Below, piece by piece: positions 31,852 to 35,742 of a DNA stretch of 48,317 nt. The stretch is from contig NZ_WIVE01000033.1 in the NCBI RefSeq assembly GCF_009601025.1, positions 1 through 48,317 on the forward strand, in the 5' to 3' direction. The position numbers were made by a program, and so were the translations under genes. The DNA is from Roseospira navarrensis. Lineage in GTDB: Bacteria; Pseudomonadota; Alphaproteobacteria; Rhodospirillales; Rhodospirillaceae. Each line of letters begins with the position of its first letter. Within the stretch, counting starts at the first letter, position 1. The notes under the pieces are model-generated. The model was not told the DNA's origin, made no database searches, and was given only the letters and a program-made list of their open reading frames with translations.

Positions 31852-31899
31852 CGTTTCATGTGTTTCAACTATTGCCTCTGCGTGAAACAACTGTACTAT
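31852..31899. promoter_or_regulatory. Candidate RpiR operator overlapping a sigma-70-type promoter
   Basis: TGTTTCA (31861-31867) and TGAAACA (31883-31889) form an exact inverted repeat with a 15-base centre; a further GTTTCA is at 31852-31857. On the plus strand TTGCCT (31872-31877), 16 bases, then TACTAT (31894-31899) make a good -35/-10 pair, so a bound repressor would cover the promoter of the oxidase gene. The site sits midway between the two divergent starts. Confidence 0.6.
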
Positions 31900-31937
31900 G
31901 CCGTGACCCTCTCACCTTGATCCGGATGCGCGGCGCC

Positions 31938-34361
31938 ATGCCTTCGAAGCCCCTTCCCGCACAGGCCTCCGTCGTTGTCATTGGCGGCGGCATCATGGGC
32001 TGCTCGACCCTCTATCATCTGGCCCGGATGGGTGTGGGTGACGCCATCCTGGTGGACCGGAACAGATTGACCTCCGGGACCACGTGGCATTCCGCCGCGC
32101 AGGTCCGCGCGCTTCGGCATTCCCGAAACTTGACACGAATGATCCAGTATTCCGTCGATCTTTACAACCGTCTGGAAGCAGAAACCGGCCAGGCGGTGGG
32201 GTGGATCGGGGAAGGATCCCTGTCCATCGCCACCACCCCGGACCGCCTGACCCACATAAAACGACAGGCCGCCCTCGCCCATTCCTATGGCATTCCGGCC
32301 TGCACGATCCCCGCGGGCGAGGCCGCCGAGCGCTGGCCCCTGATGAACGCCGCCGATGTGCTGGGCGCGGTCTGGTCACCGGAGGACGGACGGGTCAGCC
32401 CCTCCGACGTCTGTGCGGCGCTGGTGAAGGCGGCAAAGCGGCTGGGCGCGACCTTCTTCGAACAGACGGGGGTGAGCGGCATCCTGACCGAGACCGGCCG
32501 CATCCGGGGCGTCGAGACCACGCAGGGCACCGTGATGTGCGACGCCGTGGCCGTGTGCGCCGGCCTGTGGTCGCGCGAGGTGGCCACCATGGCCGGCGCC
32601 GACGCGCCGCTGTGGCCCTGCGAGCATTTCTACATGCTGACCAAGCCGGTGCAAGGCATCTCCGGCAACCTGCCTACCCTGAGCGATCACGACAACCATC
32701 TGTATATCCGCGATGATTCCGGCGGTCTTCTGGTCGGCTGCTTCGAGCCCATGGGCAAGGCCATCCCGCCCGGCGTGCTGACCGAGACCTTCGAATTCGC
32801 GCTGCTGCCCGAGGACTGGGCGCATTTCGAACCCATGGCCGAACGCGCCCTGCACCGCCTGCCCGTGCTGGAACAGGCCGAGGTGCGCATGCTGCTGAAC
32901 GGGCCGGAGAGCTTCACGCCGGACGGCACCTTCATGCTGGGCGAGACCGCCGAGACCCGGGGTCTGTTCCTGGGCTGCGGCATGAACTCGGTGGGCATCG
33001 CGGCGGGGGGCGGCGCGGGCATGAACCTGGCCCACGCCATCGTGCACGGCCACACCGCCTATGACCTGGGCGAGGCCGACGCCATGCGGTTCGCCCCCGT
33101 GTTCAATTCGGTCGAGCACCTGATGGCGCGCGCCCCGGAGGTGTTGGGCACGCACTACGCGATCGCCTATCCCGGCATGCAATTCCGGACCGCGAGAGAC
33201 CTGCGCCCCCTGCCGCTGGACGCCGAGCACCGCGCCGCCGGGGCCCACATGGGGCAGGTCTACGGCTGGGAACGGCCGCTCTACTACGGCAAGACCGCCG
33301 AGCCCGTGCTGCGGTTCGGGCGCCCGGACTGGTTCGAAGCCGTGGGCGCCGAGGTCCGCGCGGCCCACGAGGCGGCCGCCGTGTTCGATGCCTCCCCCTT
33401 CGGCAAGATCGAGGTGGAGGGTCCCGACGCCGAGGCCTTCCTCCGCCACACCTGCGCGGGCCAGGTGGGCCGCGCGCCGGGCGCGGTGATCTACACCGCC
33501 GTGCTGAACGACCGCGGCACCTATGAAAGCGACCTGACCGCTCAACGCCTGACGGAAACGCGCTACCGCCTGTTCGTGGGGACGACCGCCATCCGGCGCG
33601 ATCTGGCTTGGTTCCGCCGCCATGCCGAGGGCTTCGCCGTCACGGTGACGGACCGCACGGAGGATTTCGCCGTGCTCGGCCTCATGGGGCCGGACACGCC
33701 CCGGATCGCCGCCGCCATCGGGTGCCCGGCGCTGAACGCCATCGGCTATTTTCGCCATGCCGCGGTCGAGATCGCCGGCCATGCCGTGCGCGCGGCCCGG
33801 CTCTCCTACGTGGGCGAGGCCGGATGGGAGATCACCCGCCGGGTCGAGGCGGCGCGGGATGTCTACGCGGCCCTGACCGGCGCGGGCGCGGCGCCGGCCG
33901 GCCTGTACGCCCAGACCGCGATGCGAATCGAAAAGGGCTTCCTGGCGATGGGCCACGAACTGGATTCGGACATCACGCCCGTCGAGGCCGGGCTGGCGGG
34001 CCTGACCCGAAAGGCCGGCGGCTTCATCGGAGCGGAGGCCCTGCGCGCCCGGCGCGCCGAGGGGGCCTGTGCACGGATCGTCTCCCTCACGCTGGATGAT
34101 CCCCAGGCCGTGCCCTTGGGCCACGAGCCCGTCCACCTGGGCGACCGGATCATCGGCGACACCACGTCCTGCGCCTTCGGCTACCGCATCGGGCGGCCGG
34201 TCGCGCTGGCGGTCCTCAAGGACCTGTCCACGCCGGTCGAGACCGGAACCCGGGTTCAGGTGGACATCGCGGGTCACCGGCTCGACGCGACCGTGACATG
34301 GGGGCCACTTTACGACCTGCAAGGCGCGCGCATGCGCCCTGACGAGAACACGCCCGGCTAG
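31938..34361 (+). CDS. Dimethylglycine/sarcosine dehydrogenase-like FAD enzyme with GcvT domains
   Basis: 807 residues. The N-terminal DAO-type FAD domain has VVVIGGGIMG (12-21) and SGTTWH with His51, the position used for covalent FAD attachment in dimethylglycine and sarcosine dehydrogenases. FAO_M then GCV_T and GCV_T_C domains follow (about 425-800), including the folate-site segment MGHELDSDITPVEAGL. Such enzymes oxidatively demethylate N-methyl glycines and pass the one-carbon unit to tetrahydrofolate. The start at 31938 is chosen from the family; the Met at 31926 is possible, and no clear ribosome site is seen for either. The stop codon TAG is formed jointly by the target TA and the first base of a MITE. 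Confidence 0.85.
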   Translation: MPSKPLPAQASVVVIGGGIMGCSTLYHLARMGVGDAILVDRNRLTSGTTWHSAAQVRALRHSRNLTRMIQYSVDLYNRLEAETGQAVGWIGEGSLSIATTPDRLTHIKRQAALAHSYGIPACTIPAGEAAERWPLMNAADVLGAVWSPEDGRVSPSDVCAALVKAAKRLGATFFEQTGVSGILTETGRIRGVETTQGTVMCDAVAVCAGLWSREVATMAGADAPLWPCEHFYMLTKPVQGISGNLPTLSDHDNHLYIRDDSGGLLVGCFEPMGKAIPPGVLTETFEFALLPEDWAHFEPMAERALHRLPVLEQAEVRMLLNGPESFTPDGTFMLGETAETRGLFLGCGMNSVGIAAGGGAGMNLAHAIVHGHTAYDLGEADAMRFAPVFNSVEHLMARAPEVLGTHYAIAYPGMQFRTARDLRPLPLDAEHRAAGAHMGQVYGWERPLYYGKTAEPVLRFGRPDWFEAVGAEVRAAHEAAAVFDASPFGKIEVEGPDAEAFLRHTCAGQVGRAPGAVIYTAVLNDRGTYESDLTAQRLTETRYRLFVGTTAIRRDLAWFRRHAEGFAVTVTDRTEDFAVLGLMGPDTPRIAAAIGCPALNAIGYFRHAAVEIAGHAVRAARLSYVGEAGWEITRRVEAARDVYAALTGAGAAPAGLYAQTAMRIEKGFLAMGHELDSDITPVEAGLAGLTRKAGGFIGAEALRARRAEGACARIVSLTLDDPQAVPLGHEPVHLGDRIIGDTTSCAFGYRIGRPVALAVLKDLSTPVETGTRVQVDIAGHRLDATVTWGPLYDLQGARMRPDENTPG

Positions 34362-34629
34362 GGCCTGTTGACAATAGGAGGCGCGGCCACGGTTGAGGCG
34401 AAAACGGTCAGAGATCAGGAGCGAGGACGAAGGACATGCCGCGCATATTCAAGGACAAGCGACGCCATCTCGGGCCGTTTTCGCCCAATCCCGAAGGGAC
34501 GGGCCGGGATTTCCCGCTGGGCAGCGTCGCGCATGGCTTGTGTGGGACCTGCCACACGGCGCCATCCGCTCCTTGCCAGCGAAAAACCCCGGCCCGCCGT
34601 GACCGTGCCCCTAATGTCAACAGGCCCTA
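34359..34629. mobile_element. 271-bp MITE inserted between convergent genes
   Basis: TAGGGCCTGTTGACA (34359-34373) is repeated exactly inverted at 34615-34629, and the match continues imperfectly for about 35 bp on each side. Outer TA dinucleotides fit a TA target duplication (IS630/Tc1-like or IS5/IS427-like transposition). Internal frames of 60-70 codons show no transposase features, so it is non-autonomous. It supplies the third base of the stop codons of both flanking genes. Removing it with one TA restores ...GGC-TAA for the left gene and ...TAT-TAG for the right gene, so both proteins are unchanged. Confidence 0.85.
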
Positions 34630-35418
34630 ATACGCGGTCATGACGCGCGCATCCAGTTCGACCACGGACCCGGACCGTTGCTTGCCGAGCGCCCAAAGCA
34701 GGTCTTGCCCCCAGGTCGCCTTTGACACCACCTGAACGGTCACGACGAACGAGCCCGAATCGGGCACATCCACCGTCTTGGTCAGGCTGCCCGACCGGAA
34801 CGACAGCGACACCGTGTCGTGGGGAATGGCCACGCTGGAAACCCGGCCCAGCACGCCCAGCCGTTCGGCGCCCCCCCGGCCCGCCGTGTTGGCGTAGACC
34901 AGGATCGGGGTCGAACTCGCCAACCCTTTTTGCGAATACTGGATGACCGCCTGACGAGTGCTGGCTGGCTGGACCGCCGACTCGCGCGTGAACACCGGGT
35001 CCTTGGCATGGGCGCTGGCGATGAACAATCCCCCGGGCATCACGGCGGCCGTGGGCTGCTCGACGGTGCGCGATAGCGCGGCGACCTCGGCTTCGGCCTC
35101 GGCCCGCCCCTGCCCGTCAGACAGGCCGCCGACGATATTGGTGACGATGCCCGGGGCCGAGATCCCCACGATCAGCGCCTGACGCAGCTCCGTCTGACGA
35201 AACGCGATGCACAGCACGATGCCGATCAGCGCGAAGATGGCCAGCCCGACCAAAAGCCCGATTTCCGGCAGCGGGTTGCCCGGGTTCGAGACATAGGTCC
35301 CGGCGATGCGCGACAGCGTCGGCAGCATGCCGCCGATGGCCGCCATGGTGCAGGCGGCGACCCATTCCTGGGTGGTCAATGCCCGGTGGCCCGGCCGATG
35401 CAACGCTTCCGTGCTCAT
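34627..35418 (-). CDS. Hypothetical membrane protein with two N-terminal helices
   Basis: 263 residues, not recognised. Two hydrophobic segments near the N-terminus (AACTMAAIGGMLPTLSRIAG at about 20-40, and LPEIGLLVGLAIFALIGIVLCIAF at about 50-73) are followed by a soluble part of about 190 residues with beta-strand character (SFVVTVQVVSKATWG, VDVPDSG). It resembles small inner-membrane proteins with a C-terminal domain on one side. A GGGAG ribosome site precedes the ATG at 35418. Its TAG stop contains the right-hand end of the MITE. No operon partner is evident. Confidence 0.6.
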   Translation of the reverse strand: MSTEALHRPGHRALTTQEWVAACTMAAIGGMLPTLSRIAGTYVSNPGNPLPEIGLLVGLAIFALIGIVLCIAFRQTELRQALIVGISAPGIVTNIVGGLSDGQGRAEAEAEVAALSRTVEQPTAAVMPGGLFIASAHAKDPVFTRESAVQPASTRQAVIQYSQKGLASSTPILVYANTAGRGGAERLGVLGRVSSVAIPHDTVSLSFRSGSLTKTVDVPDSGSFVVTVQVVSKATWGQDLLWALGKQRSGSVVELDARVMTAY

Positions 35419-35742
35419 GGGGAGATCTCCCATCCACGTGACCGCTGGCCCGGGTCGCGGGTGGGGGGCGCGGTCGCCCACCCGCAGCCGGGACCATCAT
35501 ATCGCCACAATACCAAGCCGCGGCGCCGACCTGAACAAAAATATAAGCATAATTGTCACAAATTTTTGATAGTTTTGCCCGAGAGCAGCAGAGCAAGGAG
35601 GGACGCATCGGTGGTGCGGCGATGCAGGCCCCCGCCGCCTTACTCCCCCGGCGCGACCGCTTCCCTGCATGGGGGCCGCCCTGCTACGCTTGGGTCCCGG
35701 CGAGCCGGTCTCGCCACACCTTGATCCTGGGAGAGATGCCCC
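35419..35742. other. Divergent promoter region
   Basis: Lies between the minus-strand membrane protein and the plus-strand cytochrome gene. An AT-rich block at about 35505-35575 (ATAAGCATAATTGTCACAAA and following) should hold one or both promoters; no regulator site could be named. No gene is supported. Confidence 0.5.

Follow-up and report, generated by a model that had tools for sequence, protein, structure and literature searches.

The locus described here raises the question of how a mobile DNA segment can lie between two convergent genes, supply the stop codon of both, and apparently leave both proteins as they were. It belongs to a 48,317-nt stretch of the Roseospira navarrensis genome (contig NZ_WIVE01000033.1 of assembly GCF_009601025.1, positions 1 to 48,317 of the forward strand), which is hereafter called the window, and in which a 271-bp element (34359-34629) separates the two genes. 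The answer that we reach, and hold to be very probable, is that the element is a miniature inverted-repeat transposable element (MITE) of the IS5 type, which uses a YTAR target (Y being C or T, and R being A or G), carries ends that rebuild a TAG, and is seen today in those copies that selection has let survive.

The window copy is a complete, non-autonomous mobile element bounded by 20-nt terminal inverted repeats at 34359-34378 (plus strand) and 34610-34629 (minus strand), which are 95% complementary and whose outer 15 bp are exact (TAGGGCCTGTTGACA). A TA stands on each flank, at 34359-34360 and 34628-34629, and these two copies of a 2-bp target duplication also form the first two letters of the stop codons of the left gene (31896-34361, plus strand) and of the right gene (34627-35481, minus strand). 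The left gene ends in GGC-TAG and the right gene, read on the minus strand, in TAT-TAG, so that each stop is made of the target TA plus the first G of the element. These observations, put forward in a first-pass annotation that a model had made from the letters alone, were confirmed, as was its reading of the feature as a mobile element next to a duplicated TA. The same ends bound copies in many Proteobacteria. Inside the element there are short open frames only and no transposase gene. Both neighbouring genes, whose starts are uncertain, are coding according to our codon-usage caller. The left one is predicted to encode an FAD-dependent oxidoreductase that has a GCV_T domain and, as its last Pfam domain, a GCV_T_C (profile positions 2-80 of 80), which extends to residue 807 of 821. 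The right one is predicted to encode an unknown protein for which a Pfam search gave no match, and its sole close relative within the genus, found in genome G003 and 59% identical, stops at the same place to within a single residue. Both window proteins look untouched by the insertion, as the annotation had proposed. When the element and one TA are removed in silico, the site becomes CTAA, with the left gene ending in GGC-TAA and the right gene, on the other strand, in TAT-TAG, which reproduces the ancestral pair of stops, overlapping by two bases, that had been postulated.

The target was characterized in copies from other genomes. An exact scan for both ends at a spacing of 227-287 bp, run on a single genome from each of 84,980 species (a number taken from the description of the tool), returned 41 stretches, and a larger pool was assembled from 126 distinct two-ended copies of 24-480 bp whose ends carry up to two mismatches, duplicates being removed by their flanks. 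TA flanks both sides in 118 of the 126 pooled copies, and the target conforms to YTAR in 113 of them (CTAG in 62, CTAA or TTAG in 37, and TTAA in 14), the base preceding TA being C or T in 98% of the site reads taken on both strands. At sites other than CTAG the letters outside the TA differ between the two sides; we weighed a duplication of 4 bp and discarded it, because the inner G and C remain constant at TTAA and CTAA sites, so that only TA is duplicated. Since YTAR is identical to its reverse complement, either strand reads as TAR (TAA or TAG), and for this reason an in-frame YTAR is already a stop codon, which is preserved after insertion because the duplicated TA and the G of the element rebuild TAG. 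We propose a mechanism in which the 271-bp feature would be moved in trans by an IS5-type transposase and would insert at the TA of a YTAR, mostly of a CTAG, with duplication of the TA. Where this YTAR stands in frame at the end of a gene it would be the stop codon by definition, the G beside the TA would always restore TAG with no change in the protein, and, if insertions within genes or promoters are lost, the survivors would accumulate at stops, including the stops shared by convergent genes.

As the first-pass annotation had anticipated, the link to stop codons recurs in the other copies. At least one end falls exactly on an in-frame stop in 22 of the 41 exact-end copies, two of which have both ends so placed, and in 53 of the 126 pooled copies, three of which (the window element and the loci L161 and L166) show the link twice; one pooled copy lies inside a called gene. 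This linkage could be an artefact, produced by the survivorship of lone ends or by gene calls forced to a TAG, and many of the copies examined within the genus are indeed lone ends, open to such a bias. However, the 41 and the 126 copies retain both ends, and the frames are far from even: 56 gene 3' ends enter the element in the TAG frame, four end 13 nt into it at a TGA of the end sequence, and three at 20 nt. The native triplet reconstructed at the 56 stop-linked ends is TAG in 40 cases, TAA in 15 and TAC in one, so that 55 sites were already stops. Besides, our own simple gene caller, based on codon usage, was applied alike to the copies and to the background from which the null was built, and all 20 of the 56 stop-linked proteins that were run against Pfam gave a match. 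We consider an artefact very improbable, and this explanation is already largely refuted. The single TAC belongs to L166 (3686-3955, Microbulbifer donghaiensis), where both ends lie at called stops around a CTAC target; TAC is not a stop, and either one of the two genes must have been shortened or a base must have changed after the insertion.

Among the Pfam-matched proteins is an alanyl-tRNA synthetase whose DHHA1 domain (2-102 of 102) extends to residue 866 of 868, and others are a methionyl-tRNA synthetase, Ffh, a YebC/TACO1 protein and a TauD enzyme. The genes for alanyl-tRNA synthetase and Ffh are generally held to be essential. A comparison with uninserted relatives is offered by a PhoH-like protein, which has the same end residue in all six genomes of the genus (..RDVVRHPLVSCML(A/S)VL). 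In genome G002 this gene takes its stop TAG from a copy that stands outside the 126 and whose ends are degraded (CAG on the left and three mismatches on the right), and the five uninserted orthologues end in TAA (three), TAG (one) and TGA (one).

The linkage also exceeds what the target itself would give. With the expectation derived, genome by genome, from matched YTAR sites in non-coding DNA and shrunk to the pool, 48 of the 113 YTAR copies were stop-linked against 23.9 expected, a figure reached in none of 200,000 simulations; under stricter gene calls the count was 47 against 22.3, and this excess was unchanged by the omission of any one of five genomes tried. The distribution over gene junctions, computed with ten copies of unclassified side set apart, shows divergent intergenic sites under-used (17/116 copies vs 374/1,181 in the background) and convergent junctions over-used (32/116 vs 175/1,181), and between tandem genes 32 of 67 copies are stop-linked, compared with 146 of 632 background YTAR sites. 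Target choice and the loss of harmful insertions probably explain most of the stop linkage. Alternatively, the transposition machinery might actively target gene 3' ends before any selection, guided by negative supercoiling, terminator hairpins or termination factors. The persistence of an about two-fold excess over target-matched non-coding sites, also under strict calls, is consistent with such targeting, as are the tandem pairs and genome G151, in which none of 16 pooled copies lies inside a gene and nine lie at stops. Nevertheless, we judge active targeting unlikely: the 10-bp flanks of the pooled copies hold no strong motif beyond YTAR, the excess vanishes in two genomes considered below, and selection predicts the same excess, because a stop codon is the non-coding site at which an insertion leaves a downstream promoter most intact. 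We infer that selection, and not active targeting, is the source of the excess.

Several results nonetheless weigh against an IS5-type MITE filtered by selection. The pool was chosen, not drawn at random, from exact-scan loci and picked copies, mostly those with both ends listed, and 73 of its 126 members have no exact stop link. Two gammaproteobacterial genomes, of Thalassolituus (G152) and of a Cellvibrionaceae member (G163), show no excess (6/36 vs 5.2 expected), and when a single copy per genome is kept, the first in the list, the count is 9 of 27 against 5.7 (P about 0.09). Seven of ten element-rich genomes gave no match to a partial IS5 transposase query. Finally, protein searches, which covered the genus for the left gene and the genus plus 73 genomes of the family for the right gene, found no orthologous empty site of the window locus. 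In the other genomes of the genus the left gene reaches only 31-37% identity at best, a hit at 38% being a paralogue from its own genome; the relative of the right gene in G003 has a different neighbour gene, and one weak match to the right gene (31%) occurs in G054. The alignment with uninserted relatives suggested in the first-pass annotation gave no empty site for the window locus itself; uninserted orthologues could be compared at the PhoH-like gene. Its further idea, that the ends are in themselves a means of homing to gene ends, stands in part: stop linkage is recurrent, but the ends alone are insufficient, since the YTAR target and the loss of harmful insertions are needed as well, and the excess is limited in size and in the genomes that display it.

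An IS5-type transposase is the likely partner of the element, judging from the sequences of related ends. In genome G001, the loci L116 and L117, with an exact end, and L126, with one mismatch, run into the same IS5-type transposase DNA; all three are cut by contig ends or degraded, and L116, the only one of these stretches run against Pfam, contains DDE_Tnp_1_2. Among plasmid elements with an IS5-family annotation, four have TAGGGYCTGTKGACA or a close form at their ends. An insertion sequence (IS) on a Rhodovastum plasmid bears TAGGGTCTGTTGACA at both ends, and the complete IS L328 differs from the element end by one mismatch at both of its ends. The three element-rich genomes that do match the partial transposase query have imperfect visible ends. 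In L326 and L328 the annotated IS5-family transposase is split over two overlapping frames, which suggests a programmed frameshift.

The features by which a MITE is recognized were all found in this family, namely inverted repeats, a target duplication, short length (with a limit of under about 600 bp) and no transposase gene, dispersal in many copies and ends shared with an IS, together with the YTAR target looked for in an IS5-family MITE, in the 113 of 126 copies counted above. The IS5 of Escherichia coli is reported to use the target Py-T-A-Pu, with CTAG the commonest form (PMC5493358), and TAGGGYCTGTKGACA-type ends occur on IS5-family elements. In contrast, IS5 is reported with a 4-bp duplication where only TA fits here, and the window element, besides being devoid of a transposase gene, has an interior dissimilar to the few IS with which it was compared by eye. 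MITEPsy1 of Pseudomonas syringae is likewise non-autonomous, is mobilized, in the view of its authors, by the ISPsy2 transposase, and has a CTAG or YTAA target (PMC3189936). It differs in its length of 100 nt and in its ends, and no link to stop codons is noted in the parts of that source available to us; its well-conserved copies are reported only from pathovars of P. syringae, whereas the similar sequences reported from other genera are more distant (PMC3189936). The ERIC/RU-1, Correia/NEMIS and RUP repeats are also described as short mobile repeats that are flanked by TA and form stable hairpins (PMC2229807), but with lengths of about 100-200 bp and narrower reported host groups. One copy of RU-1 is reported to remove a stop codon and extend the protein (PMC2759123), unlike the present element, with which the stop is rebuilt. 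Literature matches to the end and arm-motif sequences were unrelated by title and abstract, and a search of the literature on stop-codon insertion and on such a repeat family found no description of the element among the papers listed.

Two properties are additional to anything claimed in the first-pass annotation: a conserved nested fold and the breadth of the family. For the window copy, folding as RNA gave z = -10.6 against 200 dinucleotide shuffles, and folding as DNA gave z = -10.2. In the plan of the fold the ends form a basal stem that carries two long arms, and a small CCC-GGG hairpin separates the arms; in the window copy, arm 1 occupies 34393-34488 (34397-34415 pairing with 34467-34485), the central hairpin TCCC-GAA-GGGA occupies 34489-34499, and arm 2 occupies 34500-34597 (34500-34520 pairing with 34576-34596). 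The minimum-free-energy folds of 42 copies (the 41 plus the window copy) follow exactly this plan in 31 cases and are two-armed with the small hairpin missing in three; the other eight differ, and two of them form a single hairpin with no branches, an outcome allowed by the arms, each of which is nearly an inverted copy of the other. The central CCC-loop-GGG-like motif is present in 62 of 67 elements of 258-278 bp. These 67 were reduced to 34 representatives below 85% identity, of which 23 were aligned and eleven, rearranged or hard to align, were dropped by eye (L254, L285, L320, L134, L155, L167, L137, L141, L157, L159 and L161), so that the covariation counts describe the alignable part of the family only. 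In these 23 copies, which come from distant Proteobacteria, both sides have changed in a compensatory way in 65 of 84 pairs, 90.5% of the cells pair (67.7% when shuffled and 36-41% with slid partners), and the covariation score is 0.561, against a shuffled mean of 0.162.

Such compensation raises the possibility that the element is kept at gene ends for a function, as a bidirectional transcription barrier (an idea raised in the first-pass annotation), an RNA-stability element or a 3' module, with the fold selected for that purpose, and the over-use of convergent junctions is in line with it. Against it, the scan of the window element returned no promoter-like site and one terminator-like site, on the minus strand, where 0.5 are expected by chance. 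Departures from Watson-Crick pairing amount to 66 G-U, 61 A-C and 121 others, and the near equality of G-U and A-C leaves selection on an RNA strand not clear, though arm 1 alone has 31 G-U and 8 A-C. Moreover, 103 of the 252 pooled ends face the 5' end of a gene. We find retention for function quite improbable. Rfam searches gave no family at the gathering score for 10 of the 41 scan loci, and for the window stretch two matches, both far below that score.

With respect to breadth, blastn with the window element gave matches in 16 of 148 genomes, its own included, and no plasmid copies of the window element. The exact-scan elements measure 267-274 bp in 38 of 41 cases and 261, 260 and 241 bp in the other three. 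Among their hosts are Rhodobacteraceae, Kiloniellaceae, Rhodospirillales and Sphingomonadales, and also a Betaproteobacterium, Ralstonia, Thalassolituus, Microbulbifer, Spongiibacter, Porticoccus, Cellvibrionaceae and Hydrocarboniphaga. Three metagenome-assembled genomes labelled Rhodothermales, Eremiobacterota and Entotheonella may be misbinned; the elements of 241 and 260 bp, which fold differently, come from the last two. Sixteen other genomes picked from the exact scan hold 2 to 81 sites each within one mismatch of the end (9 to 81 in twelve of them and 2 to 8 in four), where a reversed-pattern control found 0 to 2.

Within the genus, end-like sites were listed in all six genomes; they are clearly above the reversed-pattern control in G005 (58 vs 7) and G001 (22 vs 8), and not clearly so in the other four. 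The genome of the window, a draft of 197 contigs, shows this copy and one lone exact end, and drafts may hide collapsed copies. That lone end (contig C126:28254-28294, L130) also supplies an in-frame stop. A part of the listed genus sites, 65 ends with at most one mismatch in the core, 41 of them in G005, was classified. TA is the start of 51, of which 23 coincide exactly with the in-frame stop of a called gene, 13 follow a gene 3' end, 10 precede a gene 5' end, four have no gene call, and one lies in a gene that terminates 13 nt into the element; the remaining 14 of the 65 have no initial TA and are incapable of being TAG stops. Because a stop-forming end is hard to lose, and survivorship bias follows, the lone ends of the genus were not used as main evidence.

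The family also varies in size. Longer forms of about 300-400 bp (L248, L249, L256, L258 and L263 in G152; L265, L267, L268, L270, L272 and L277 in G151) carry additional hairpin modules nested in an arm, one example from G152 having about 66 bp with three hairpins, as if they had grown by the insertion of hairpins into hairpins. The shortest forms are 25 bp, two fused ends (L118, L182 and L186), and are followed by one of 39 bp (L317), several of 54-60 bp (L311-L315, L275 and L096) and one-arm forms of 180-186 bp (L098, L108, L112 and L322); among the short forms, from 25 to about 180 bp, several lie at stop codons. In pooled copies whose ends vary from TAGGGCCTGTTGACA, the window copy excluded, the two ends are identical in 40 pairs and different in 21, which suggests that the two ends are kept matched.

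What these findings would mean is a simple rule for selfish insertion in compact genomes, in which a target read as a stop from either strand, combined with ends that rebuild the stop, leaves the protein unchanged. The rule reaches even the last codon of alanyl-tRNA synthetase and Ffh genes, and it may extend to other elements that insert at YTAR or CTAG. The family also provides a naturally occurring series of folded, mutually similar inserts at the ends of genes, in which effects on termination and mRNA stability can be measured. A bolder idea, which we advance tentatively and with more doubt than belief, is that this is one family of folded mobile DNA spread over Alpha-, Beta- and Gammaproteobacteria and built for stop codons, whose fold would serve its movement or copying as DNA and would give its hosts structures at gene ends. 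If this were true, such a family could insert at no cost into the final codon of essential genes and into the joints between convergent ones.

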